Positions 2,355 through 46,102 of a stretch of DNA of 54,249 nt are shown here, piece after piece. The DNA comes from a virus, in the IMG/VR virus record IMGVR_UViG_3300049846_001989, positions 1 through 54,249 of that record; one strand, given 5' to 3'. A program made the translations under genes and the position numbers. The notes beneath the pieces are model-generated. The model was given only the letters and a program-made list of their open reading frames with translations, did no database searches and was not told the origin of the DNA. Within the stretch, counting starts at the first letter, position 1. Each line of letters starts with the position of its first letter.

Positions 2355-2584
2355 CCGTAATCCAGCTCATAGAAGCCTTGGTAACCCTGCCACCCGATAC
2401 CCCCGTCGCTATGGTCATGCACGACGATCCTGCCATGGAAATGTACGCCGTAGGCGAGGTCAAGCTTGGCGAAGAATTTGGCTTCGAAAGTGATAATCAC
2501 TGGATGACTGATGAATCGGCCGTAGTACTGATTTCTGAGGACATAGTACTGGTAGACCCCGAGGAGTTCGAGGAGGTCAAGTGA
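2348..2584 (+). CDS. Small acidic phage protein, unknown
   Basis: This 78-aa protein is strongly acidic, especially its Glu/Asp/Val C-terminus. The N-terminus, with an L-I-E-A-L-x-x-L-P-x-D pattern, resembles a class of small phage proteins of unknown role. It overlaps the previous gene by 7 bases, and its TGA overlaps the GTG start of the first member of the small paralogue family. Confidence 0.65.
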   Translation: MLTVIQLIEALVTLPPDTPVAMVMHDDPAMEMYAVGEVKLGEEFGFESDNHWMTDESAVVLISEDIVLVDPEEFEEVK

Positions 2585-2781
2585 TTACGTATGAAGATAT
2601 GCGTAGCGTATTAACTGATGAAGAATGGACAGCTTTACATAAAGCGTCCTCTAGAACTTACCTTCGAAACTTTACAGCCAAAAGTTATAAACAATGGCTG
2701 TATAAGTTCCATAACTGGGCCAGTACCCCACAAGGATATGATTACAGGTCCAGTGTCTATTCCCGTTTTGCGGTGCTTTAA
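2581..2781 (+). CDS. Small paralogue family, copy 1
   Basis: This 66-aa protein starts at a GTG preceded by GAGGAGG and overlapping the upstream TGA. It shows the family pattern: an N-terminal T-Y-x-D-M-x-x-V-L-T-x-E-E-W-x-A-L helix, a variable basic middle, and a C-terminal N-W-x-x-x-P-Q-G-x-x-Y block ending near an Arg/Phe pair. The family has eight members in this window (starts at 2581, 2783, 2992, 3201, 3418, inside 8950, 9359 and 9598). I know no named family; no catalytic residue or zinc site is visible. Small size and aromatic content suggest a binding role. Confidence 0.75.
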   Translation: MITYEDMRSVLTDEEWTALHKASSRTYLRNFTAKSYKQWLYKFHNWASTPQGYDYRSSVYSRFAVL

Positions 2782-2782
2782 T

Positions 2783-2995
2783 ATGCTCACATTCGACGAC
2801 ATGCGCGATGTACTGACTGACAAAGATTTTGCAAAACTTGTGTTTTTAACGCGCAATTCCCCAGCAGCCAGAAAAACCATGGCTCCAAACTATGCCGACC
2901 TTCTTCAAGCTGTTTGGATAGCACTGCCTTACGAGCAACGTACAAACTCGGCCTTTTGGGGCAAGGTTTACGACCGGTTAAAGATACTCCAATGA
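2783..2995 (+). CDS. Small paralogue family, copy 2
   Basis: This 70-aa member starts one base after the previous stop. The N-terminal F-D-D-M-R-D-V-L-T block is well kept, but the C-terminal P-Q-G turn is replaced by a longer segment rich in Glu, Arg and Asn before F-W-x-x-V-Y-D-R-L. This shows that the Trp and Arg-Leu end are more conserved than the turn. Its TGA overlaps the next ATG (ATGA). Function unknown. Confidence 0.72.
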   Translation: MLTFDDMRDVLTDKDFAKLVFLTRNSPAARKTMAPNYADLLQAVWIALPYEQRTNSAFWGKVYDRLKILQ

Positions 2996-3201
2996 GCACG
3001 TTTAACGACATGCGCGATGTTTTGACTGCCAAGAAGTGGGCGGCTCTGAACCGCTTAGCAAAAAACAGCATAATTTCCAGAACGCGTGTCTCTGAAAACT
3101 ATTGGCGTTATATCCTAGGCATGTGCACTTGGGAAGTCACTCCAGAAGGGTGGCATTATTGGAACAGAGTCCACGACCGTCTACGTAGAGAACTTGAATA
3201 A
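2992..3201 (+). CDS. Small paralogue family, copy 3
   Basis: This 69-aa member has an N-terminal F-N-D-M-R-D-V-L-T block almost identical to that of copy 2, then a basic middle, T-W-E-V-T-P-E-G-W-H-Y-W and V-H-D-R-L near the end. It overlaps both neighbours by 1-4 bases, so copies 1 to 4 form one coupled translational unit. Function unknown. Confidence 0.75.
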   Translation: MSTFNDMRDVLTAKKWAALNRLAKNSIISRTRVSENYWRYILGMCTWEVTPEGWHYWNRVHDRLRRELE

Positions 3202-3431
3202 TGATTACATTCAACGACATGCACGACGTTTTGACCGATGAAGAGTGGGAGGCCCTGAACCTCATCGCTTCTACCAAGCCCGCATTAAAAAGAGAAGAAA
3301 GCAACTCCTACGCAGAATGGTTGTTTGAAAACTTTACCTGGAGCCGCGCACCACAAGGCATAGAGTTTTGGCGAGCTATACATGGACGACTGGAAGTGCT
3401 GGATGACGGGCCAAACAATGCTGCGTTTTGA
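3201..3431 (+). CDS. Small paralogue family, copy 4
   Basis: This 76-aa member starts at an ATG sharing one base with the previous TAA. It has I-T-F-N-D-M-H-D-V-L-T-D-E-E-W, then F-T-W-S-R-A-P-Q-G-I-E-F-W and H-G-R-L, followed by a short extra tail. It is the copy closest to the family consensus. It overlaps copy 5 by 14 bases. Confidence 0.75.
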   Translation: MITFNDMHDVLTDEEWEALNLIASTKPALKREESNSYAEWLFENFTWSRAPQGIEFWRAIHGRLEVLDDGPNNAAF

Positions 3432-3621
3432 AGACCTCAAAGACATCCTGACCGAAGAAGAATACGCGGCAGCAGAAAAAGCCCGCATACCCTCTAAAAA
3501 CCAGTCGTTTCACAACTATGCCAATTTAATGCTCCACACGTTTGCCTGGAACAAAACGCCAGGTTTTTCACCAGACCACTGGAAAAACAAACACACCAAT
3601 CTTTTTTTACTTATACGATAG
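3418..3621 (+). CDS. Small paralogue family, copy 5 (divergent)
   Basis: This 67-aa member keeps R-F-E-D-L-K-D-I-L-T-E-E-E-Y and F-A-W-N-K-T-P-G, but the turn is altered (P-G-F-S-P) and the C-terminus is hydrophobic instead of ending in Arg-Leu. I chose ATG 3418 because translation from there aligns with the family start; an in-frame ATG at 3382 would add residues inside copy 4. It may be a decaying or re-specialised copy. Confidence 0.68.
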   Translation: MLRFEDLKDILTEEEYAAAEKARIPSKNQSFHNYANLMLHTFAWNKTPGFSPDHWKNKHTNLFLLIR

Positions 3622-4011: not shown

Positions 4012-6354
4012 ATGAAGATCAATTTCCTGAGTGCGCAGTTCCCAATAACAAAGACTTACAGCCAGACCAGGTCAGGTAACATAAACAAGACGCCCTATCC
4101 CTTTGTTTATGAAGTAAATTCTTTCGAATACCAGGTCCCTACGCTCGAGGCCCTATTCCCCCTGATACAACAGCACGCGGGGCAAGGGCACTGTCTCCTG
4201 AAAGGCGAGCTGGCCCGCCCCCTCGTCTCCGAGTCCCGGGCTGGCAGCACTGACCCCAAGCAGAAGACCGAGTGGGTGTGCCTGGACCTGGACGGGATTG
4301 GCGGGTACTCGACCGTGGACCAGTTCCTCCAGGACGTGGGTTGTGGTGAGACGGACTACATCCTTCAGTGGTCTGCCAGCCAGGGCGTGGGCGGCGCCCC
4401 CGAACTGCGCTGCCACATCTTCATGATGCTCGACGCGCCCAGGACCCCCGAGTTCCTGAAGCGCTGGCTGATGACCCTGAATCTGACCTGCTCACGGCTC
4501 AAGGAGCAGCTCCGACTCACACGTACCAACTGCAGCTTACGCTGGGGGCTCGACATCACGACCTGCCAGAACGACAAGCTGCTATACATCGCACCACCGC
4601 TGTTCGAGAACATGGAAGACCCCCTGGCCGGACAGGCCCGAATCTCATTCCACAAAGGCAAGCGCCGGCGCCTAGCTATTGGCACCCAGGTCCTCGAACG
4701 TGAGGCCCTGAGGAACCTGTCAGACCAACGGATCAACGAGCTGCGTCTCGGCAGCAGCATGCCCAAGCGCAAGACCACGAAGTACAAGGTACAGGGCTCT
4801 GTGGAATACATGCAGAACCCGGACACGGCCACCGTGACGGACATCAAGATCGAACGTGGCTTTGTCTACCTGAACCTCAACGGCGGGGACTCCTGGGCGT
4901 ATTACCACCCGGAGAACAACCCGTCGTTTATATACAACTTCAAGGGCGAGCCAGTCTATAAAACTGACGAGCTCTTGCCCGAATACTGGGCCGAGATTGC
5001 CCGACGTGCCCAGGACTACCAGCCAGACACCTCTGGAACGATCTACCTGGCCTTCAGGGAGTTTCGGACCGGTAACTACTATAACGGCACCTTCGATGGC
5101 GAGACAAGCCGCCTGAACCTGGCCATGGCCAAGAACGAGACACAACTCAAGCACTTCCTCAAGCAGCACGGGCAGCCGGTAGGCGACTATGTACCTGACT
5201 GGGACCTGGTGTTCGACCCCCACAGCGAGATCACTCTCGATGTGATGAACCGCACCGTGAACACGTACGTACCAAGCGTGTACATGGAGGACCGCTCGCC
5301 CCCCAAGGTGACGACTATCCCTCCCGTGTGCAACAAGATCATCAGGCACGTACTGGGCGACGACGAGGAGTGTGTACTGCGCTTCCTCAACTGGCTGGCC
5401 TGTGTGGTGCAGTTCAAGGACCGGACAGGCACCGCCTGGGTCCTGCACGGCACGCAGGGGACGGGCAAAGGCCTGCTGTTCCACCATATCATTGCCCCCA
5501 TCCTCGGAGAGCACAACACCTCGGCCAAGCGGATGGAGGAGCTGGAGAGTGAGTTCACAGGCTTCGTAGAGAACAAGTTCGTCACGGCTATTGACGAGAT
5601 CGAGGTGGGCAGCTCGCTGTACCACGCCAAGATCACTGCCAAGCTCAAGAACCTGATCGTGGAACCGAGTATCTCGATCCGCAAGATGTACACTCCGGCA
5701 TATATGTCCCGGAACTACAACAACATGCTCTTCATGAGTAACCAGTCCGAGCCGCTACAGGTGTCGCCGGACGACCGCCGCTTCAACGTGGCTCCATACC
5801 AGTTCAACAAGCTCCAGATCACGACCACCGAGGTGGACTCGATCGAGAAAGAACTCAAGCAGATGTATGCGTACCTGATGCACTACCCGGCGAACCGCGA
5901 CATGGCTCGCACGCCGCTGATCAACCAGGCACGTGAGACATTGATAGACATCAGCCGGTCAGCCGTGGACGTCGTAAGTGACGCCCTGCTGGCAGGCAAT
6001 TTCGGATTTTTCTGGGATCAGCTCCCGTCACAAAAACCGCCGGAGAGTGGGGCGATAACCAACCCGAACCACTTCAAGTATATGCGGTATCGAGAGCTGC
6101 TCCTGGGCATACTGGAACGTACAGAACCCTGTGCCCTGTCACGGGATGACCTGTACACCATGTATGACTGGTGCGATGGCAAGGTACCATCAAGCCCCAA
6201 CAAGTTCACGGCCCTGCTCAAGCATCACCGTATTCACTTGACCCCTGTCTGGGTGGGCAAGCGGACAACTCGAGGGATTGAAGTACAGTGGGACTTCTCA
6301 GATAAAGAGTGGGTAGCGGCCTTGAAAGAAGAAGTCAAAAACAACACAGTCTGA
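4012..6354 (+). CDS. Primase-polymerase / SF3 helicase
   Basis: The protein has 780 aa and two enzymatic halves. The N-terminal half fits an archaeo-eukaryotic primase-polymerase: D92-x-D94, His135 in a C-H-I-F strand and Asp182 in L-D-I match the three catalytic positions of that fold. The C-terminal half is a superfamily 3 helicase of the NrS-1 polymerase-like/DUF5906 type: Walker A G-T-Q-G-T-G-K-G near 481-488, Walker B A-I-D-E near 527-530, and a sensor Asn in F-M-S-N-Q near 577. It probably makes primers and unwinds DNA at the phage fork, with the family A polymerase (9822-11690) extending. It is GC-richer than the small genes to its left. Confidence 0.9.
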   Translation: MKINFLSAQFPITKTYSQTRSGNINKTPYPFVYEVNSFEYQVPTLEALFPLIQQHAGQGHCLLKGELARPLVSESRAGSTDPKQKTEWVCLDLDGIGGYSTVDQFLQDVGCGETDYILQWSASQGVGGAPELRCHIFMMLDAPRTPEFLKRWLMTLNLTCSRLKEQLRLTRTNCSLRWGLDITTCQNDKLLYIAPPLFENMEDPLAGQARISFHKGKRRRLAIGTQVLEREALRNLSDQRINELRLGSSMPKRKTTKYKVQGSVEYMQNPDTATVTDIKIERGFVYLNLNGGDSWAYYHPENNPSFIYNFKGEPVYKTDELLPEYWAEIARRAQDYQPDTSGTIYLAFREFRTGNYYNGTFDGETSRLNLAMAKNETQLKHFLKQHGQPVGDYVPDWDLVFDPHSEITLDVMNRTVNTYVPSVYMEDRSPPKVTTIPPVCNKIIRHVLGDDEECVLRFLNWLACVVQFKDRTGTAWVLHGTQGTGKGLLFHHIIAPILGEHNTSAKRMEELESEFTGFVENKFVTAIDEIEVGSSLYHAKITAKLKNLIVEPSISIRKMYTPAYMSRNYNNMLFMSNQSEPLQVSPDDRRFNVAPYQFNKLQITTTEVDSIEKELKQMYAYLMHYPANRDMARTPLINQARETLIDISRSAVDVVSDALLAGNFGFFWDQLPSQKPPESGAITNPNHFKYMRYRELLLGILERTEPCALSRDDLYTMYDWCDGKVPSSPNKFTALLKHHRIHLTPVWVGKRTTRGIEVQWDFSDKEWVAALKEEVKNNTV

Positions 6355-7542: not shown

Positions 7543-8910
7543 ATGCGCACGCCACCGCCACTTTACGACCACCAGGTCAGGGACGTACAGTTCTGTCTTG
7601 ATAACCCACGAGTCTTCGATTCATCAGACCCCGGCTGCGGGAAAACCCGCGTGCAGATCGAGACATTCAGGATCAGGCGGCAACGTGGTGGCAAGTGCCT
7701 GCTAGTTATTTGCCCGAAATCCCTCCTGCGCTCAGCGTGGGAGAACGATTTCCACAAATTCGCACCAGAGATCACAGTCTCTGTTGCTCCGGCGGCCAAG
7801 CGTGAAGAGGCTTTCCAACGCGAGGCTGACGCTTACATTACCAATACCGACGCAGTCGTGTGGCTGGCCAAACAGCCGCCGCGCTTCTTCGCCAAGTTTG
7901 ACACGCTGGTTATCGACGAGATCACCGCGTTCAAGCATCACACCAGTCAGCGCTCGAAGGCTCTTGCCAAGATCCGCAAGCACTTCATCAACCGCGCTGG
8001 CCTGACAGGAACGCCAAACTCCAACACCATCGCAGACCTGTGGCACCCGATTTTCATCATCGACGACGGTAAGCGACTGGGGACAAGTTTTTACCAGTTC
8101 CGTGCTTCAGTGTGTTCGCCAAAACAAGTCGGCCCTGACCCTAACATGGTCAAGTGGGAAGATCGTGACGGCGCAGAGCTGGCTGTCGGCGGGCTGCTGA
8201 AAGACATCACGATCCGTAATATCTTCGAACAGTGTCACGATATTCCGGAGAATCTCCAGACTGTTATGCCATACCAGATGTCGCCCAAGCAGCGCAAGGC
8301 ATACGACCAAATGGAGAAGGCGGCCATCACACTCGTGAACAACAACGAGGTGGTGTCTGCCATCAATGCTGCAGTTGTGGCCAACAAACTCCTGCAGATT
8401 GCCTCAGGCGCTGTGTATGGTGACGAGGAAGAATACTCAGTCGTGGATCTCGACCGCTACGAGCTTGTAGCACAGCTCGTACAGGAGCGTACCAACCCGT
8501 GTGTCGTGTTCTTCAACTGGCGGCACCAGCGCGATGGACTAATAGAGGAGTTCGACCGGCGCGGGATTATTTACACGCTGGTTGATGGAACGACGACAGA
8601 CAAGAATCGTGAGGAGGCCGTACGCCTGTTCCAGGCCGGGTTCTACCACGTCTTCCTGGCACACCCTGCTTCTGCCGCACACGGCCTGACACTGACCAAG
8701 GCGACGACGACAATCTGGACAAGCCCGGTGTATAACCTTGAGCACTTTGTACAGGGTAACCGGCGTACGTACCGTGCAGGCCAGACCCAGCGGACCGAGA
8801 CGATCACACTCCTGGCTGAAGGCACCATCGAGACGAAGGTATATGAAAAAATGACCGCGAAAAATGTTCGTCAGCTCAACATGTTGTCAATTCTCAAGGA
8901 GCTCTCATGA
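7543..8910 (+). CDS. SNF2-type superfamily 2 helicase/translocase
   Basis: The 455-aa protein has the SNF2-like motifs in order: motif I D-P-G-C-G-K-T (29-35), motif II D-E-I-T near 124-127, motif III L-T-G-T-P near 154, motif IV V-V-F-F-N-W near 323, and motif VI Q-G-x-x-R-x-x-R-x-G-Q near 403-413. It lacks accessory domains and is short for the family, as is usual for phage versions. It probably translocates on duplex DNA during replication, recombination or fork restart. It follows a 124-base intergenic stretch, so it may begin a new translational unit. Confidence 0.88.
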   Translation: MRTPPPLYDHQVRDVQFCLDNPRVFDSSDPGCGKTRVQIETFRIRRQRGGKCLLVICPKSLLRSAWENDFHKFAPEITVSVAPAAKREEAFQREADAYITNTDAVVWLAKQPPRFFAKFDTLVIDEITAFKHHTSQRSKALAKIRKHFINRAGLTGTPNSNTIADLWHPIFIIDDGKRLGTSFYQFRASVCSPKQVGPDPNMVKWEDRDGAELAVGGLLKDITIRNIFEQCHDIPENLQTVMPYQMSPKQRKAYDQMEKAAITLVNNNEVVSAINAAVVANKLLQIASGAVYGDEEEYSVVDLDRYELVAQLVQERTNPCVVFFNWRHQRDGLIEEFDRRGIIYTLVDGTTTDKNREEAVRLFQAGFYHVFLAHPASAAHGLTLTKATTTIWTSPVYNLEHFVQGNRRTYRAGQTQRTETITLLAEGTIETKVYEKMTAKNVRQLNMLSILKELS

Positions 8911-8949
8911 CGAAACCCTGGTGGCAGGGCTGCCGCGCTAGTTAGAGAT

Positions 8950-9381
8950 GTGACTACTACCCGCCCAACCGTTGACTTCGGCGTACTGACTAATGAAGCG
9001 CGTGCTGCGTGGGCGGCTAATACTTTTCAAACGGCGCAAAACCGCGGGTTTGTGGAGCGGTTTTTAAGAGACAACATAAACGGTATACCAGACCAGGAGA
9101 ACGAGAACGTGGATTCAGAAAAACCAATAACTTACATCACCATGTTGCAGCTCATGACTCCTGAGGAACTGGAAGCGTTCGACATCGCATGGGAATCTGC
9201 CGGTGGGTATAGAAGGGGCTCAAGCTTACCCCCACTCCCAGAACTCAAAGCCAGAACACCACGCAGTTTTATAGATCGAACCCTGTATTGGAGAAAAACC
9301 CCACAAGGACACGATTATTGGGACGCTCTCAGCAATAAATTAAACAAAAGGTGGCAAGATGGCCTCCGTCACATACAATAA
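8950..9381 (+). CDS. Capsid N-arm mimic fused to small paralogue family (copy 6)
   Basis: This 143-aa protein starts at a GTG. Residues about 9-65 align without gaps to residues 5-61 of the major capsid protein encoded at 44993-46102: by hand I count about 18 identities in 57 positions, including F-x-x-L-T-x-E, A-W, F-V-x-x-F-L, N and S-E-K. The remaining part is a member of the small paralogue family: I-T-Y-I-T-M-x-x-L-M-T-P-E-E-L near residue 60 and T-P-Q-G-H-D-Y-W near 118-125. The fusion is direct in one frame, so it is not an assembly of two ORFs. Possible roles include binding to capsid partners, occupying the site of a host sensor of capsid protein, or regulating assembly. None is shown by the sequence alone. 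Confidence 0.75.
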   Translation: MTTTRPTVDFGVLTNEARAAWAANTFQTAQNRGFVERFLRDNINGIPDQENENVDSEKPITYITMLQLMTPEELEAFDIAWESAGGYRRGSSLPPLPELKARTPRSFIDRTLYWRKTPQGHDYWDALSNKLNKRWQDGLRHIQ

Positions 9382-9604
9382 TATCCACAAATTCTTGCGT
9401 AAAAGTGCCATGCAAGAGCTGGAGCTTGCGCTTATAGACTCCCGCACCGTGTTCACAGAATACACCGTCGCAGATCTCGTACGCCCGTGCGCCTCCGACT
9501 GGATCCACGATCTGTTCAACTGGGAGAGTTCACCCCAAGGGCCCTATTATTGGTTCGATACGTATCAATCCTTGCTCGAAAGAGAGGAGAAAGAATCGTG
9601 GTAA
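9359..9604 (+). CDS. Small paralogue family, copy 7
   Basis: This 81-aa member overlaps the previous gene by 23 bases. Its N-terminal block is diverged (V-T-Y-N-N-I-H-K-F-L), but the C-terminal block F-N-W-E-S-S-P-Q-G-P-Y-Y-W is intact and followed by a Glu/Arg tail. It shares the segment C-A-S-x-W with copy 8, so copies 7 and 8 are probably the most recent duplication of this cluster. Confidence 0.73.
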   Translation: MASVTYNNIHKFLRKSAMQELELALIDSRTVFTEYTVADLVRPCASDWIHDLFNWESSPQGPYYWFDTYQSLLEREEKESW

Positions 9605-9825
9605 CCTACGCCGATATGCACACATACCTGACTCATGAAGAAATGGAAGCGCTGGAAACGGCGCTGAGCAGTCCTGATACAAACGTTCTTGATAAACCTC
9701 TGCCAGAATTTAAAAGAAACTGTGCATCATCGTGGTTATTCTGGTTTTTTAACTGGGGGTCTTCTCCACAAGGACACAACTACTGGAGTAGCGTACACAA
9801 GCGCTTGGAACGGGAAAAGGTATGA
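9598..9825 (+). CDS. Small paralogue family, copy 8
   Basis: This 75-aa member starts at GTG 9598 after a GAGGAG site. It has V-T-Y-A-D-M-H-T-Y-L-T-H-E-E-M-E-A-L, then F-N-W-G-S-S-P-Q-G-H-N-Y-W-S-S-V-H and R-L-E-R. It overlaps the DNA polymerase start by 4 bases (ATGA), so it is translated together with the replication genes. Confidence 0.75.
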   Translation: MVTYADMHTYLTHEEMEALETALSSPDTNVLDKPLPEFKRNCASSWLFWFFNWGSSPQGHNYWSSVHKRLEREKV

Positions 9826-18573: not shown

Positions 18574-18582
18574 ATTATAGCA
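18574..18582 (-). promoter_or_regulatory. Possible extended -10 promoter for the 18267-18482 gene
   Basis: On the minus strand the sequence reads TGCTATAAT, a perfect extended -10 element, straddling the stop codon of the 2257-aa protein gene. No good -35 hexamer lies at 16-18 bp, as is allowed for extended -10 promoters. Transcription would start near 18567 and give an 85-base leader to the small zinc protein. Chance occurrence cannot be excluded. Confidence 0.4.
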
Positions 18583-21500
18583 CCTTGGCGGGCAGGAACG
18601 TGTGGGTAGCGAACTGTTCCCAGTTGCCCTGGCCGGCCCGCATCAGGTTCTCCAGGGTGGGGCCGAACTCCACATTCATAAGCCCGTCGCCCGGCTGCGG
18701 CCCGAAAAACGCCCCCTCCCGGCCAGTGATGCCGGCCCGGTTCAGACCGTGCTGCATATAGTCCGCCCAACCCCAGTTCGCAGTACTGGGCCCCCCGAAC
18801 AGTGACCACTTGACCATATCGGTAGCGATCATCAGTGGTACGCCAGCCATCAGGTACGCCATCGGCCTCCAGTTGCCCTTGCCCAGCTGGTTTACACCCC
18901 GCTGCAGCAGGACTTTGTCGAAGGCGTAGGCGAAGCGCTTCATGTGAGCCAGCAGGGCGAAGCGGGGGTCAGCCATCCACGTGGGCTGATGAGCCGCATT
19001 CGGGTGCAATACGGCGCTTTCCACGAAGCGGTACACGGCCCTGGACATGCTGTCCGAGTTCACAATCGGGTCGCCGTCCTCGTCAAACTGCATATTCTTC
19101 ACGTCCTGCGCGTTCAGGCCTAGCTCCTTGAGCGCCGGCGGGTTGGCCAGGTTCTCTTTTATGTACTTCAGGCCGGCCCGGGTGGCGGCTACGCGCATGC
19201 TGTTGTTGAAGGCCTGCATGCCGTTGACTTTGAAGAACACGCTATTGATCTTGCGGTTCACCTGACCCATGCTCATGGCCATGCCGGCCATGGTCTGGGC
19301 AGCCACGTCGTCCTGTATCGCGCCGACCATTTCAGCCAGCTCGCGGTATTTGTCGGGCGACTTGCTGAATACCCGGCGGATGTCTTTCAGGGCCTGCAGG
19401 TATGCCCTGCCAGCGTCGGACAGCTTGCCAGACCGGGCAGCTATGGCCAGCGGGTCGATGAACTGCGAGAACACGGCCAGCGGGAGCATGGCGGTATTCT
19501 GGAGTGTCATGGCAGCACCTGTAGCGGTGCGCATCAGCGGGGTCAGCGCGTGCTGCTGGAGTGTGCCCTCGACTGCCTGCACTGCCTTGCCTGCCTGCTC
19601 GATCTCGCGCTCTGTAGCGCCCTGCTCGCGTGCCTTGTCCATCAGGTCCTTGATCACAGCCCCGTCGTCGTTGAACATGCGGGCGTATTCCGTGCGGTGC
19701 ACGCCGGCTCGGATGTAGTTCTCCAGTATGTAGCTGATGTCGTCGTGCTGGAACTTGACGAACTTGTGCGCGTTCTTCGGGGTGATGAACTTCATCTGCC
19801 GCTCTTCGTGTGAGGCAGCGAACGGTGTGTACCCGAGGTGGTGCTCGTTCTCGGCCAGGTCGATCTGGCCAGACCCGTGCAGGATGTTCTGGACGATGTT
19901 GTCCGCCGCGAGCAGGTCCATGTTGCCTTCGTCGATCAGCAGCTGGCGGAACTCGTCCGGGCGGTCAGCGATGGCTGAAGCGTCCCAGCTACGCGGAAAG
20001 TAGTCCTTGACCTGACGGACTTCGATTCCGGAATCGCGCATATACCGGTAGAAGTTATCCAGCAGCTCGCGCACGGCTTTTTCAGCCGGCGAGGTGGCTG
20101 GCTGCATGGCCTGCAGGTTCTTCATCGCTTCGTGCAGCTCTTCCTTGGAGAACTCCTCCAGCGTCTTGCCCATCGCCACGTTCCAGCGGCCCATCATCCG
20201 GCCGCGTTGTTCGACGAAATCGGTACCCGCACCCTGGTCGTTCACTTCCTTGTAGAGCATATCGGCCAGCTCGGTCAGGGCCGGGACGTTAGCCCGGCGC
20301 ATGTTCTCCAGGCCAGTGTTGACTGCTTTGTAATACAGGTCTGCCACCGGGCCGGCGACGCTTTCGAACTTGTCGCGCATGCTCTGGCCCATGATCGTGC
20401 GCATGGCTGTCGGGGCAGTCCTCGGGTTGCTCAGCTTGCCGTTGTACAGGGCCATGAAGAACCGGTCGGCCTGCTGCGATTCAGACAGTACACCGACCAG
20501 GTCGCGCAGGAACTGCAGGACCTTGCGGAACACGGTGTCTGTCTCCGGGTTCACCAGCTTGCGGATCTCGGGGTCGGCTACCCACATCTGGAACAGGTAC
20601 GCCACGCGCTCCTCGGGATCAGCCATGACCTGCTCGATTTTCTGCACGTTGGCCCGGGCGATTTCAGCCTCGGACATACCCGCGCGCTGTTCGGCGCTTA
20701 GCATACCGCCCGCGTCGAATAGGCGGCGTTTGACAGCGCTGAGTACGGCTGGACGCGACGCTGCGGCTTCGATCCGGGCCTTGAGCTGCCGCACTTCACG
20801 GGTACTGCCCAAGGCGTGCCACACAGCGTGCAGGGCCTCGTGGTGCGCTACGCTCATCGGGTTCACCGCGTCGATTGCCACCTCGATGATGCGCTTCTTG
20901 TTCGCTTCGGAGCGGAACTCGCCCGAACCGCCCAGTTGTGAAGCCAGGCGGTTGAATTTGACATCAATCTCCTTGCCGGCGATCCGGTAAATCTCCTGGA
21001 ACATCTTCTCACGCAGCGCAGCGCGGTCTTCACTGATCGTCGTGAATTCCCCGTCTATGCCGTCAGGTGACTGCTCATTTTTCTTTACGGTCGAGGTATT
21101 GTTCCCACCCTTTTTTTCTGTGGATACGCCGGCCTCTGCTTTCGCCGCATTTCTAGCGGCCTGTTCAGCCAGGAGTGCGCGCATACGGGCGCGACGCCCT
21201 GCCGGGGAGTTCGGGCTAGGTTCCCGCTTTTGTTCTGTACGCACTTGTCTAGCGACGGGTTCGGCAGTTCTTACCGCCGTGTCGGGCGCAGGCTTGGCGT
21301 ATTTATTAACAAGCGCGTCGGACTTTTTCTTCAGTTCGTCGATGCGGGCGGTAGAATTCTCTACGCCCTCCAAGGACTTGATCTCAGCCTGATACCCCTT
21401 CCACAGGTTCCGGTCTCTCTGTGTCGCGCGCTCGGTAAAATACGCCACCGCGTTTTCAACCCCCTGCCTACCTTCGGCAGACTTCATCCGCGCACGTGCA

Positions 21501-24500
21501 CGCTCTGCTGGAGTGGTCGTACCTTTGCCGGGGGGGTTTTTAGGTTCGACGTAACGGGTCTGCGGCGTCGTTTCACGGTCTGAGCGCGTCAACAGCTCTA
21601 TTTCTGCCTCAGCAGCCTGCCTACGCGCCGTAATCGAGTTCCCCCTAAATTTTTTCCGCTCGGCTGGAGTACTAAATTTTTCCGAAACCTTATCAAGCGC
21701 CAACAGCTCGGCACGCAACTCTGCCAAGCGTTTTGAAACCCCGGTCTCCTTTGTGTCCTGCATATCAACGCGATTTTCTACTAGCGGATCAGGGTTAGCC
21801 CCAATGTCCGCAGCAACTTTGGCGCGATATGAACCGCCCTCGTTAAACTTGGCGTCGAACTCCTGCTGCTTGTTCGCCAGGTTCTTTTCCAATTCAAGGA
21901 GCAGGGGCTCGTCTACCATGGGGGCGCTTTTAACAGCGGCGATGCGCTCTTGCACGGCCTCGATGTTGGCAGCGGCGTCAGACTCGCGGGCTTGGTCCAG
22001 CTCGTTGAACATCTCCGTCTCTGTAGTACCAGTGATGACGTCACTACGGTCTTCCGCATATGGGAACGCCTCAGCCAGCTCGCGGCGGACAATGGCGCGC
22101 ATGGCCAGAACATTGGCGCGCGGATCGTAGTTTGTAGTACCACGAGTAGCGTCCCGTTCAGCAGCGCGATTGGCTTGTGAGAGCGCTAAGAGCGAAGCCT
22201 CTAGCCGGAATTGACCAGCGCGTTCTACTGGGCGCTCTCCAGGCGCAGTTGTGTAAGGCCGCATACCGTACCCAGCGAGATCTGCGGCCAACTTGTCAAC
22301 ATACTCCTCGCGCGCCTTGTCGTTTCGCAGTTTTGTAAAACTCTTCTCCGACACTTTCGCGAGCTGCTTGGCTAATACCATGCGGACTGCCTGCTGGCGA
22401 ACAGACGCTGGGGCGTTGCGCAACTTCTCTTGTGTTGGGTCTTGCATGGCGATGTCGATCGCTTCGGCAGTAGATTTGGCGCCACCGTTTTTCGCCCGCT
22501 TAAACGCGGCCTCGAAAGGCCCGGCCACGTCTGTGCCTATATTCTGGCGATATTGTCTGGCCAACTCGGTGTAAGCAGTGTTTTCGGGGCCGAAAGCATG
22601 CTCTACGTCAGCGGCGTAATTCTTCACGCGAGCCTGGACGTCACGACGCAGAAAGTTTGCTTCCTTCTCTACGAATTTGGCTTTTTCAAGCGTCGTTCCG
22701 CGTTTCGGACCGACATCCTCCACAGCTGGCTTCGGCGCGCGCTTCTTCGCATCAGACTTCAGCGCCAGGTCGCCCCAGCGCAGTACTTTTCCGTTCGAAG
22801 CGGTATGTAGTATTGTGTCGGGTGGGACATCTGCATTCATCGCACCGTCGCGAATGACGTCGATCTTGACCGGCTCACCAGCCTCGTTCTTGCCAGTCAG
22901 CTGCAGGCCAGTCAGGTCTTCGCGAGCAATGAGTCCGGTCAGCACCCGCATGAATTTCTCGGCCGGCTTATACTCCCGGTCGGTGGTGATATTGCCGACA
23001 CGCGTGCGGCTCATCATCAACTGGGTAGACAAGTTTACGGGGCGCGACTTACCTTCGCCATCAGTGAAGAAGGCTTTCAATACGGCGCCTTTTTCGTCCG
23101 CGCCGCTACCCGCCATGAAATCGCCCAGCTCGCGGTTTGACATCGTCGCTGTCTGTGAATCCCCACGACCCGCCCCGGTCTGCACCGGCTCTATGTTCTG
23201 AACATCGACGTTCAGCTTGTCCATGTAGCTGTTATCGCCGGTGCGCGCCTTGGCGATAGCGTCATCCAGCGTGTTGATCAGGTTCGTCGTGTGCTCGATT
23301 TCCGGCTTGGCCGCTTCCTGATCCTTGGCTCTCAGCAGGTTGTTCAGGTGGCGTTCTTCACCGCGACGCGCGCGGACGAGCTCCATAACCGGCGTGGTGT
23401 CGTCGGGCATGTACCGCTGGAAGTAGTCCTTACCAGACACGCGCATGCGGTTATCTTCCAGCTGCTGCGGGGTGGTGAGTGGTTGGTCGGCCAGTGTAAT
23501 AGCCCTGTGCGGGGCATTACGCGGCCCAGCAGCGTAGGCGCCGGGTTCTACGGCGTTGATTCCGTCGAGCGGAGAAACCGGTGTTTCTGACCCACCGCCT
23601 TCTTCGTCTACACTGAGACCGGCTTTTCTAAGCGCCGCCTGCATGGCGCTTTCGATCTCAGTGCCGGCCTGCAGGTTCATCTTGCTGACCGCACCTCCCG
23701 CCGACGTCACCCAGCTGTTTAACGCATCCCCGGCTGCGGTAACTCCACGCGCAGCTACGTCTTTTGCCGTGCCCAACCCTTGTTTTGCCATCTGTTTGGA
23801 CAGTTCGCCGATGCGGTTTGCACCGAGTTCGAGAACTGCGTTTCGTATGTCGCTCACTGCGTTTTCGTCGAGGGCGCTTTCACCTGTCAGAATTTGAAGC
23901 ATATACTGTTGCGTAGTTACGTCCCCAGCTTGTTCGGCCAGCTGGCGGGCGATGTCTGCCTGCATCAGCGTTTCGCTCAGTTTTTTCTTCTCGGTGAGTC
24001 CTAGCTTGGCATTCCATTCAGGTTTGTCTGCCAGATAGAAGTTGAGCAGCTCTGCCTTGGCCCTCTCGCGTTCGGCACCAAACTGTGGCACCAACGTCTG
24101 TTTACCCTCAGTAGCCTGGCGGATACCCTCCAGTGTTTCTACCAGAACATCCGGGTTATATAAAGCGTGTAGAGCCGGAAACTTATCCGCCACAAACAGC
24201 GCGTCGTTCTTGGCAGCCTGCGCCAAGTTTTTGATGATCCCCGCGGTCGCGGCCAGGCCGGGGTTGGCTTGCACCGTTTTGTTGATCGCTTCCATCGTCT
24301 TGGAAGCCAGACCCTGGGTTGCCTCGGGCGTAGTCTTGAGCGCATCCATACCTTGGGCGGCCAGTGCTTTGGCCTTGTTCACGCCGGGTTGGGCCATGTT
24401 CACGCCGGAAGCGATGGCCTGGCGGGCAGCGTCGGGCACTGTGGCCAGGGCTGCGTTGCCGCCGGCGCCGGCAGCAGCTACGCCGCCACCTTGCAGGGCC

Positions 24501-25348
24501 CCGCCGACGGCAGATTCGCCCAGCTGCCACATACCTTGCGTAGAGGTTGGGTCGAAGTCTGCGCCCCCCATCTGCTCGATGGTCATCGCTGTGTTGGCGT
24601 CCTGCGCAGCTTCCGGGATGGCCTCGGCGGCGGTACCGGCGACTGTGGTAGTGATAGGCGAACGGGGCCCGCCGAGAAGGGCTTTTTTTGCGCCCCGCAG
24701 TGCACCGGAGGCTATCAGACCGGGGCCGACGTCCACGGCAGTATTTTGCAGGGCGGCGGTGCCTGCAGACGACAATACTTCGCCGGGGGAGGACTCGAAC
24801 TGCTGACGGACCGTCGGATCGGCGTACATCTGGTTCAGTACGTCGCCCTTGTTCATTCCGTAACCAGAGGCAGCACCGGCGACCAAGGCGCCGGGCACAC
24901 CGGCCAACAACTTACCGGCGGCGCCAGCGGCGACTTGCGGCAACAGGTTTACTGGCGCGCCACCGATTGTCTCGGCGGCGTAATCTAGTAAGTTGTTGTT
25001 TTCGTAGGCATTTCGCAGACCGCCGACGCTGTTTTCGGCGCTGGCCTGCGCTTTGGTCTGCGTCTGTTGCAGGGCGTCGGTCAAAACCTTCTCTGCATAC
25101 GGGTCCTGAGCCACGCGCGCTTTCAGCAGGGCGCCTAACAGCTCACCTTGTTGCGCCTGTTGAACCGCGGTGTTGAAACCGCGCTCGAGGGAACCGGCGG
25201 AGCGCAGCGCGCCTAGCTGCTGGGCCTGGGCGGCGTCGGCTTGCTGCCGAATTGCGGCGTCGGCCGCGGCGGCGTCGACCGCGTTTTGTTGTTGCACCAG
25301 TGAGGTGGCTGCGAGCGGGTTGAACTGGCGCAGGATTTCGTTGGCCAT
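18575..25348 (-). CDS. Giant virion protein (polyvalent/ejection type) with HExxH motif
   Basis: The protein has 2257 aa and is the largest in the window. A Gln/Ala-rich N-terminus is followed by Gly/Ala-rich hydrophobic segments (about 120-330), long charged, coiled and disordered regions, and a H-E-A-L-H motif near residue 1500 (in A-H-H-E-A-L-H-A-V-W-H) that could bind zinc in a metallopeptidase-like domain. The last 450 residues resemble the LPD38-type domain found at the end of phage polyvalent proteins, with hydrophobic helices near 1950 and 2200. Such proteins are packed in the capsid and injected with the DNA, where they counter host functions. The ATG at 25348 follows CGGAG. The protease role is not proven. 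Confidence 0.72.
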   Translation of the reverse strand: MANEILRQFNPLAATSLVQQQNAVDAAAADAAIRQQADAAQAQQLGALRSAGSLERGFNTAVQQAQQGELLGALLKARVAQDPYAEKVLTDALQQTQTKAQASAENSVGGLRNAYENNNLLDYAAETIGGAPVNLLPQVAAGAAGKLLAGVPGALVAGAASGYGMNKGDVLNQMYADPTVRQQFESSPGEVLSSAGTAALQNTAVDVGPGLIASGALRGAKKALLGGPRSPITTTVAGTAAEAIPEAAQDANTAMTIEQMGGADFDPTSTQGMWQLGESAVGGALQGGGVAAAGAGGNAALATVPDAARQAIASGVNMAQPGVNKAKALAAQGMDALKTTPEATQGLASKTMEAINKTVQANPGLAATAGIIKNLAQAAKNDALFVADKFPALHALYNPDVLVETLEGIRQATEGKQTLVPQFGAERERAKAELLNFYLADKPEWNAKLGLTEKKKLSETLMQADIARQLAEQAGDVTTQQYMLQILTGESALDENAVSDIRNAVLELGANRIGELSKQMAKQGLGTAKDVAARGVTAAGDALNSWVTSAGGAVSKMNLQAGTEIESAMQAALRKAGLSVDEEGGGSETPVSPLDGINAVEPGAYAAGPRNAPHRAITLADQPLTTPQQLEDNRMRVSGKDYFQRYMPDDTTPVMELVRARRGEERHLNNLLRAKDQEAAKPEIEHTTNLINTLDDAIAKARTGDNSYMDKLNVDVQNIEPVQTGAGRGDSQTATMSNRELGDFMAGSGADEKGAVLKAFFTDGEGKSRPVNLSTQLMMSRTRVGNITTDREYKPAEKFMRVLTGLIAREDLTGLQLTGKNEAGEPVKIDVIRDGAMNADVPPDTILHTASNGKVLRWGDLALKSDAKKRAPKPAVEDVGPKRGTTLEKAKFVEKEANFLRRDVQARVKNYAADVEHAFGPENTAYTELARQYRQNIGTDVAGPFEAAFKRAKNGGAKSTAEAIDIAMQDPTQEKLRNAPASVRQQAVRMVLAKQLAKVSEKSFTKLRNDKAREEYVDKLAADLAGYGMRPYTTAPGERPVERAGQFRLEASLLALSQANRAAERDATRGTTNYDPRANVLAMRAIVRRELAEAFPYAEDRSDVITGTTETEMFNELDQARESDAAANIEAVQERIAAVKSAPMVDEPLLLELEKNLANKQQEFDAKFNEGGSYRAKVAADIGANPDPLVENRVDMQDTKETGVSKRLAELRAELLALDKVSEKFSTPAERKKFRGNSITARRQAAEAEIELLTRSDRETTPQTRYVEPKNPPGKGTTTPAERARARMKSAEGRQGVENAVAYFTERATQRDRNLWKGYQAEIKSLEGVENSTARIDELKKKSDALVNKYAKPAPDTAVRTAEPVARQVRTEQKREPSPNSPAGRRARMRALLAEQAARNAAKAEAGVSTEKKGGNNTSTVKKNEQSPDGIDGEFTTISEDRAALREKMFQEIYRIAGKEIDVKFNRLASQLGGSGEFRSEANKKRIIEVAIDAVNPMSVAHHEALHAVWHALGSTREVRQLKARIEAAASRPAVLSAVKRRLFDAGGMLSAEQRAGMSEAEIARANVQKIEQVMADPEERVAYLFQMWVADPEIRKLVNPETDTVFRKVLQFLRDLVGVLSESQQADRFFMALYNGKLSNPRTAPTAMRTIMGQSMRDKFESVAGPVADLYYKAVNTGLENMRRANVPALTELADMLYKEVNDQGAGTDFVEQRGRMMGRWNVAMGKTLEEFSKEELHEAMKNLQAMQPATSPAEKAVRELLDNFYRYMRDSGIEVRQVKDYFPRSWDASAIADRPDEFRQLLIDEGNMDLLAADNIVQNILHGSGQIDLAENEHHLGYTPFAASHEERQMKFITPKNAHKFVKFQHDDISYILENYIRAGVHRTEYARMFNDDGAVIKDLMDKAREQGATEREIEQAGKAVQAVEGTLQQHALTPLMRTATGAAMTLQNTAMLPLAVFSQFIDPLAIAARSGKLSDAGRAYLQALKDIRRVFSKSPDKYRELAEMVGAIQDDVAAQTMAGMAMSMGQVNRKINSVFFKVNGMQAFNNSMRVAATRAGLKYIKENLANPPALKELGLNAQDVKNMQFDEDGDPIVNSDSMSRAVYRFVESAVLHPNAAHQPTWMADPRFALLAHMKRFAYAFDKVLLQRGVNQLGKGNWRPMAYLMAGVPLMIATDMVKWSLFGGPSTANWGWADYMQHGLNRAGITGREGAFFGPQPGDGLMNVEFGPTLENLMRAGQGNWEQFATHTFLPAKVL

Positions 25349-44992: not shown

Positions 44993-46102
44993 TTAAGCGT
45001 GAGCGACGAAGCAGTTGAGGACGCCAAAATCCTGGGCAGTAGCGGAACCGGAGTACTGGTTCACATACTGTGGCTTCAGGAAGCCGAGGATCTTGCCAGT
45101 AGAAATACCCAACTGGTTGCCGTAATCGAACTCTTTCTCGTTCCACTCAGGAGCGCCCAGATCTGCCATGCCCAGCGCCTGGGCGCCGCAGAACAGAACG
45201 TGAGAACCTTCAGCGATGTCAGAAGAGTCGCCGAAGTCGTTGGTGGTAGAGGTCCACTGTGGTACGTGGCGGAATTCGTGAAGCATAACTCCGTCGATCA
45301 GTACGCTGTCGCCAGTGAACAGTTCGTTGCCGCCGCCGCGAGTCTGAGCGTAGCGCAGGTTCTGTTTGTAGTCGTCGCTCTGCTTCAACAGCATCATAGC
45401 CTGCGGGCACAGGAACGCGTGGTAGATCTCCTGGCTGCCGTTCTTCACGCCGCGGATATACTGCTCTTTGGCGTACTTCTTCAGCTCCATGATCATGTTC
45501 CACGTCGGCGTGTCGCCAGCGTCTACGTCGCCAATGGCGGCGGTCGTTTCCAGGCCAGTAGAAGCGTCCCAACGGCAGCGGCGCAGATCGGATGCAGCAG
45601 CTACGTCAGCGGCGAATTCCAGGTTCTGGAGGTCAGAGCCTACGCGGGCTACACCTTTAGGGGTGTATGCGTAGCTACGACCGGCCAGGGTCAAGAACGC
45701 CAGCTGGTCGATACGGTCTGCCAGCCAGTACGCGAGAACGTCGCGGCTGTTAGAGCGGAACTCAACAATAGACTTCTGGTCGCTGATGCGGCCCTTGCTA
45801 CGGTTGGCGTGGCGCAACTGATCGACGCGGATGACCTGTTCGTAGGTCTTCATCGCCTCTTCATTGCCTTCCAGCGTGCGGTCGCCCGCTACACCGTCGC
45901 CTTCGAGGTCAGCCAACAGAGTCATAACGGCGCGGGCGCCCTTCTCTGATTTTTTAACTTCAGTGACGTGCTGGATCAGGCTGTTCGGGCCTTTGCCGAG
46001 AAATTGTGAAACGAAGGACTGGTTCCGGGCGTGTTTCCACAGATCCATACTCCAAGCTGTTTTTTGCTCGCTGGTCAAAGCGGCGAAATTGGTAAGTGCC
46101 AT
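44993..46102 (-). CDS. Major capsid protein (N4 gp56-type)
   Basis: The 369-aa protein matches the N4 gp56-like capsid family: an N-terminal arm L-T-x-E-x-x-x-A-W ... A-R-N-x-x-F-V-x-x-F-L, S-E-K-G-A-R, then G-D-R-T-L-E-G-N-E-E, and R-x-G-R-I-S-D-Q near 123-130. It should adopt the HK97 fold. It has its own promoter (46179-46207), a hairpin leader, a GAGGAGG ribosome site and a downstream terminator, all of which would favour high expression. Residues about 5-61 also occur in diverged form in the early-region gene at 8950-9381. Confidence 0.93.
   Translation of the reverse strand: MALTNFAALTSEQKTAWSMDLWKHARNQSFVSQFLGKGPNSLIQHVTEVKKSEKGARAVMTLLADLEGDGVAGDRTLEGNEEAMKTYEQVIRVDQLRHANRSKGRISDQKSIVEFRSNSRDVLAYWLADRIDQLAFLTLAGRSYAYTPKGVARVGSDLQNLEFAADVAAASDLRRCRWDASTGLETTAAIGDVDAGDTPTWNMIMELKKYAKEQYIRGVKNGSQEIYHAFLCPQAMMLLKQSDDYKQNLRYAQTRGGGNELFTGDSVLIDGVMLHEFRHVPQWTSTTNDFGDSSDIAEGSHVLFCGAQALGMADLGAPEWNEKEFDYGNQLGISTGKILGFLKPQYVNQYSGSATAQDFGVLNCFVAHA

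Follow-up and report, generated by a model that had tools for sequence, protein, structure and literature searches.

Fusion of a capsid-protein N-arm to a small paralogue domain in a gene among the DNA-replication genes of a phage

We analyzed the IMG/VR virus record IMGVR_UViG_3300049846_001989 over its positions 1 to 54,249, and we refer to this whole stretch of 54,249 nucleotides as the window. On the plus strand, positions 8950-9381 form an open reading frame (ORF) of 143 aa that starts with a GTG codon. This ORF lies among the DNA-replication genes of the phage. Its upstream neighbor is a helicase gene (PHROG 62; 7543-8910, plus strand) in the same reading frame, and the genes that follow the helicase in its relatives differ from those in the window. 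The ORF consists of a module related to the N-terminal arm (N-arm) of the major capsid protein (MCP; residues 1-58, positions 8950-9123) and a small-paralogue domain (residues 59-143, positions 9124-9381). The MCP gene of the phage is found at 44993-46102 on the minus strand. It codes for a 369-aa protein of the N4-gp56 family, the source family of the arm, with matches to PF13252 (2.3e-39), phrog_334 (6.4e-73) and, above the cut-off, the NCBIfam model TIGR04387 ("N4-gp56 family"). Rfam and tRNA scans of the window were empty, no intron signal was present in it, and a promoter and terminator scan gave nothing clearly above shuffled sequence. Elsewhere in the window, positions 18575-25348 on the minus strand encode a 2257-aa virion protein. 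Within it, phrog_30152 matches only residues 1483-2241, and strong PHROG matches are absent from most of the first 1,480 residues.

The second half of the ORF belongs to an eight-copy, weakly conserved family of small proteins with the motif W..[ST]PQG..YW, which reads W..TPQGHDYW in the ORF. Five paralogues (a-e) form a first array at 2581-3621 on the plus strand. Paralogue g (9359-9604, plus strand) overlaps the end of the ORF, and paralogue h (9598-9825, plus strand) is 34% identical to the ORF domain. The genes of the family overlap within both arrays in the window, 2581-3621 and 9109-9825. When the ORF is read from an internal GTG at 9109, the resulting 90-aa form matches phrog_16354 (3.9e-7) and retains the C-terminal motif. 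A search for further relatives with a single paralogue returned no matches. Single relatives of the family occur in Acinetobacter, Vibrio and crAss-like phages, and a related IMG/VR record (L001) has an array of its own at 4709-5357. No function is assigned to the small domain in PHROGs, Pfam, NCBIfam or PADLOC; the one PADLOC match, to paralogue h (0.0076), is not convincing.

We compared the first half of the ORF to the MCP using several independent scores. BLASTP aligned ORF residues 9-66 with residues 5-62 of the phage's own MCP without gaps (18/58 identities, E 4e-7 for this single comparison). The Smith-Waterman score of the arm against its own MCP was 81, and the maximum was 50 in 5,000 shuffles of ORF residues 1-66 and 48 in 20,000 double shuffles. 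Among all reading frames of the window, the MCP was the top non-self match to the ORF (81, with the next at 41). We built a hidden Markov model from 66 MCPs, leaving the ORF out, and used its N-terminal part. This model recovered the ORF from the six-frame translation of the window at 1.2e-7, with the next match at 0.13, and scored it at 27.8 bits, compared to at most 11.5 bits in 20,000 shuffles. An ungapped 50-column position-specific scoring matrix (PSSM) gave the arm 20.7 bits and the next non-capsid segment -36.1 bits (n=37,112). Run blind against all PDB chains, phmmer returned an MCP as its top match, covering ORF residues 9-60, at an E-value of only 0.036. Residues that the arm shares with MCPs include F10, L13, T14, E16, W21, A29, N31, F34, F38, L39, N44, E52 and S56-E57-K58. 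From these comparisons, ORF residues 9-58 are almost certainly homologous to MCP residues 5-54, a stretch with 17/50 identities. The preliminary description had extended the ungapped match to MCP residue 61. Its homology is confirmed, but the supported end lies at ORF residue 58 and MCP residue 54. It had also named a profile search and shuffled-sequence alignments in advance as possible refutations, and the arm match passed both. Homology stops at residue 58, a full-length HK97-type capsid domain is absent, and the ORF has no Pfam or NCBIfam match. The ORF is a fragment homologue of an MCP and not an MCP.

The joint between the two modules could be placed within a few residues. The tail of the match (residues 41-58) is significant by itself (p 0.0024), and residues 59-88 score at chance level (0.21). 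The alignment of the small family begins at residues 60-62 (I60-T61-Y62), which are equivalent to M-x-T-Y/F in the sibling proteins. With the MCP match ending at K58 and the small-family alignment starting at 60-62, the joint is narrow. In HK97-fold proteins, the N-arm gives way to the E-loop, and the arm in the ORF would end about where the E-loop of the MCP begins. We infer this boundary, since our model of the phage's own MCP is poor there (pLDDT about 30). We conclude that gene 8950-9381 is a chimaera in which the N-arm of an N4-gp56-type MCP (residues 1-54) has been placed in frame before a small-paralogue gene. The preliminary description had proposed an early-region protein in which a capsid arm is fused to a domain of an eight-member small family. 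This architecture is supported, with the two parts in one frame and the gene in the replication-gene region. Searches of phages, IMG/VR and GTDB genome contigs returned no orthologue of the fusion. The earlier remark that no described protein has this architecture likewise agrees with the collections we searched, although our literature search was small and such an absence is weak evidence.

We examined where the arm came from. Its scores against individual MCPs range from 70 to 99; the best is with the MCP of record L114 (99), and the phage's own MCP scores 81. Third codon positions of the arm and its own MCP are identical at 13/58 sites, which is chance level. Because the arm is nearer to the MCPs of other phages and its third positions are at chance, we rejected a recent internal duplication of the phage's own MCP. 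The arm had earlier been called a mimic of the phage's own capsid protein. Shared descent describes it better, with MCPs of other phages as the nearer relatives. We surveyed fifty records, many of them fragments, that are related to the window through the MCP, the helicase or the small family. These contained no second copy of the arm beyond the MCP itself, and the MCP- or helicase-related records among them, again often fragmentary, had no recognizable small-family gene. A tblastn match in phiA008 is the arm of its MCP. The tblastn matches in FLC6 and VA-RY-4 are antisense to annotated genes and were hence taken as chance.

An arm-only reading frame also exists in Podoviridae sp. ctwe8250 (MW202615), where group I intron sequence breaks up the MCP gene and leaves the arm as a separate 65-aa ORF. 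In the corresponding record (L113; MW202615.1, 12155-17018), the MCP gene at 646-2888 is seemingly split by two group I introns, with Rfam matches at 1472-1601 and 1649-1971. An endonuclease-like ORF lies within the first intron, a mini-exon reading LLADLVDDGVVGYR lies between the two, and the annotation lists the arm exon as a hypothetical protein of its own. The ctwe8250 arm ORF leaves MCP homology near residue 55-57, close to the end of the arm in the window. Its exon is followed by a group I intron and is presumably spliced to the remaining MCP, whereas the window has no intron signal. This arrangement suggests that a split MCP gene could supply an arm-only piece, but a shared structural boundary accounts equally well for the similar end points. 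We also observed that the match between phrog_13784 (177 aa, function unassigned) and the MCP is confined to MCP residues 43-146 (6e-8). Part of a capsid protein may hence be present in a second described family of phage proteins as well.

The arm carries signs of constraint. Codon use is coding-like in the arm frame and not in the other five frames, and the arm contains no stop or frameshift. When we simulated neutral decay starting from the present MCP, none of 2,000 runs matched the arm in similarity, codon-position pattern and freedom from stops at once. Where near MCPs show no variation, the changes in the arm are conservative (p 0.003 over columns 9-40 and 0.035 over columns 9-58). Both results speak against neutral decay from the present MCP, although some of the substitutions also occur in distant MCPs. 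The MCP of phiA008 has D at 9 and R at 18, as in the arm, and that of record L189 has "EA" at 16-17. Since distant MCPs have these residues in common with it, the arm may have separated from a divergent MCP fairly recently. The sequence data are compatible both with selection after capture and with descent from a divergent MCP. Structure models reached mean pLDDT values of only 56 and 61, which is insufficient to support a fold search. Low-confidence helices at ORF residues 15-28 and 32-42 correspond to helices at 11-25 and 28-34 in the MCP model after the offset of 4. This agreement is weak evidence because the input alignment contained MCP arms.

We inspected the translation starts that could produce each part of the protein. 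GTG 8950 has no Shine-Dalgarno (SD) pairing, and its energy of +0.4 kcal/mol is the weakest among 28 plus-strand starts tested. An internal SD sequence, AGGAG (9095-9099), precedes the in-frame GTG at 9109-9111 with a spacing of 9 nt and an energy of -7.4 kcal/mol (9095-9111, plus strand). Its strength is comparable to that of typical starts in the window. A value of -7.4 kcal/mol falls in the 5% tail of random positions, so it makes the internal start suggestive rather than proven. The 90-aa product from 9109 resembles its seven paralogues, all of which lack the arm addition. We consider it probable that GTG 9109 is used. For production of the long 143-aa form, the balance is nearly even and tilts slightly against. 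Upstream of the ORF, a second SD sequence (AAGGAG, 8896-8901, -7.7 kcal/mol) leads a 12-codon mini-ORF (8907-8945), and together they form a possible re-initiation leader (8896-8945, plus strand). The ATG at 8907 overlaps the helicase stop and is in a different frame than the arm, and the mini-ORF ends 4 nt before GTG 8950. It looks as if a gene start had been left without its body. Ribosomes could re-initiate at GTG 8950 after translating the mini-ORF. Because the ORF is in the helicase frame, read-through of the helicase stop might also reach the arm. Predicted RNA structures at 8950 and 9109 were unremarkable.

We tentatively favor, at a little below even confidence, a nested gene whose main product is the 90-aa protein and whose minor, arm-bearing form docks on capsid protein. 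Illegitimate recombination would have brought the arm from the MCP of another or older lineage. The SD-led GTG 9109 would yield the ordinary 90-aa family protein, and re-initiation at GTG 8950 after the mini-ORF would yield the 143-aa form in smaller amounts. In HK97-fold shells, the N-arm generally reaches over neighboring subunits. With its arm, the long form may dock on the MCP or procapsid and deliver the small domain there, acting as a capsid ligand or assembly modulator. Binding of the arm to capsid is, taken by itself, a rather doubtful step. We favor the nested gene because of the arm homology, the clean joint, the coding-like codons, the poor fit to neutral decay from the present MCP, the SD sequence at 9109 but not at 8950, and the mini-ORF. 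Paralogues and relatives elsewhere, at 64-81 aa and without any addition, support it as well. The proposal is weakened by the weakest start of the 28, the lack of an orthologue that keeps the fusion, the occurrence of some arm substitutions in distant MCPs, by which the constraint may predate the capture, and the low confidence of the structure models.

The alternative close behind is that the arm is a relic, a captured MCP fragment that is untranslated or translated without function. The gene would then be a 90-aa family member beginning at 9109, and the first half of the ORF would be an annotation extension. We regard this as quite possible, if somewhat less so than the nested gene. The contrast between GTG 8950, which lacks an SD, and GTG 9109 with its good SD fits a relic, as does the restriction of the fusion to this one genome among those found. 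The arm also departs most from the MCP consensus around residues 45-53, the site of the internal SD and GTG. A relic would less readily explain an arm that is free of stops and frameshifts, is coding-like in its codon use, and has changed conservatively at MCP-invariant sites.

The remaining explanations fared worse. According to the preliminary description, the ORF might be an early decoy, whose arm would occupy a host sensor of capsid protein and delay an abortive defense. MCPs are known triggers of CapRel-SJ46 (PMC9712102) and of staphylococcal Thoeris (PMC11312562), and the gene does lie among replication genes. However, CapRel-SJ46 escape substitutions map to MCP residues 114-115 (PMC9712102), outside the N-arm, Thoeris is reported to sense the hexameric form (PMC11312562), and a trigger fragment might equally activate the sensor. 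The arm start lacks an SD and the internal SD-led start would make the small domain alone, so the decoy proposal is not supported and we judge it very unlikely. Still less credence goes to a poison for competitors, in which the free arm would compete for arm packing with the MCPs of related phages in the same cell and block their assembly. Several other MCPs give the arm higher scores than its own MCP does (99 vs 81), but its own MCP lies inside the family range and indicates no clear preference. An assembly or sequencing artefact at the 5' boundary of the arm, either a false join or an indel separating the 8907 start from the arm frame, is similarly improbable. The strong SD and ATG at 8907 open only 12 codons in another frame, and the region is known from one record only; against this, the arm is not close to known MCP DNA and continues in frame through an unbroken joint into the small domain. 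A coincidental similarity, arising from a widespread helix-start motif (LT.E) together with aromatic residues, is scarcely credible given the Smith-Waterman, PSSM and HMM margins over shuffled or non-capsid sequence, even though the small family's own N-terminus also reads LT.EE, MAFFT misaligns that LT.EE with the arm, and the PDB match is weak taken alone.

Capsid arms are normally regarded only as parts of the shell. A more speculative extension of the nested-gene model, which we consider improbable at present, is that a detached N-arm has turned into a regulatory or counter-defense module, with the long product of an early nested gene engaging capsid subunits or host sensors before or during assembly. 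If true, a free arm on an early protein would offer a direct means of probing the arm's binding partners, and through it a phage could adjust shell assembly or weaken immunity that senses capsids. Were it only a relic, the ORF would still show that part of a shell protein can relocate into an unrelated gene, cut near a likely structural boundary and possibly at an intron-prone site.

We compared the ORF to known systems. Its residues 9-58 are homologous to N-arm residues 5-54 of the N4-gp56/PF13252 (Phage_capsid_3) MCPs, which include that of Pseudomonas phage KPP25 and a solved relative (26de). Unlike these proteins, the ORF lacks all of the capsid fold beyond the arm, and it is encoded amid replication genes on the strand opposite to the MCP gene. 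The arm also alters several residues that are invariant in near MCPs (W26F, R30Q and G40R). Residues 59-143 share the motif of phrog_16354 and its kin, and the ORF forms an overlapping three-gene array with two paralogues. The paralogues and the members checked elsewhere start at the family domain, and the N-terminal extension is found only in ORF 8950-9381. CapRel-SJ46 and Sau-Thoeris show that an MCP can be the molecule sensed by the host.
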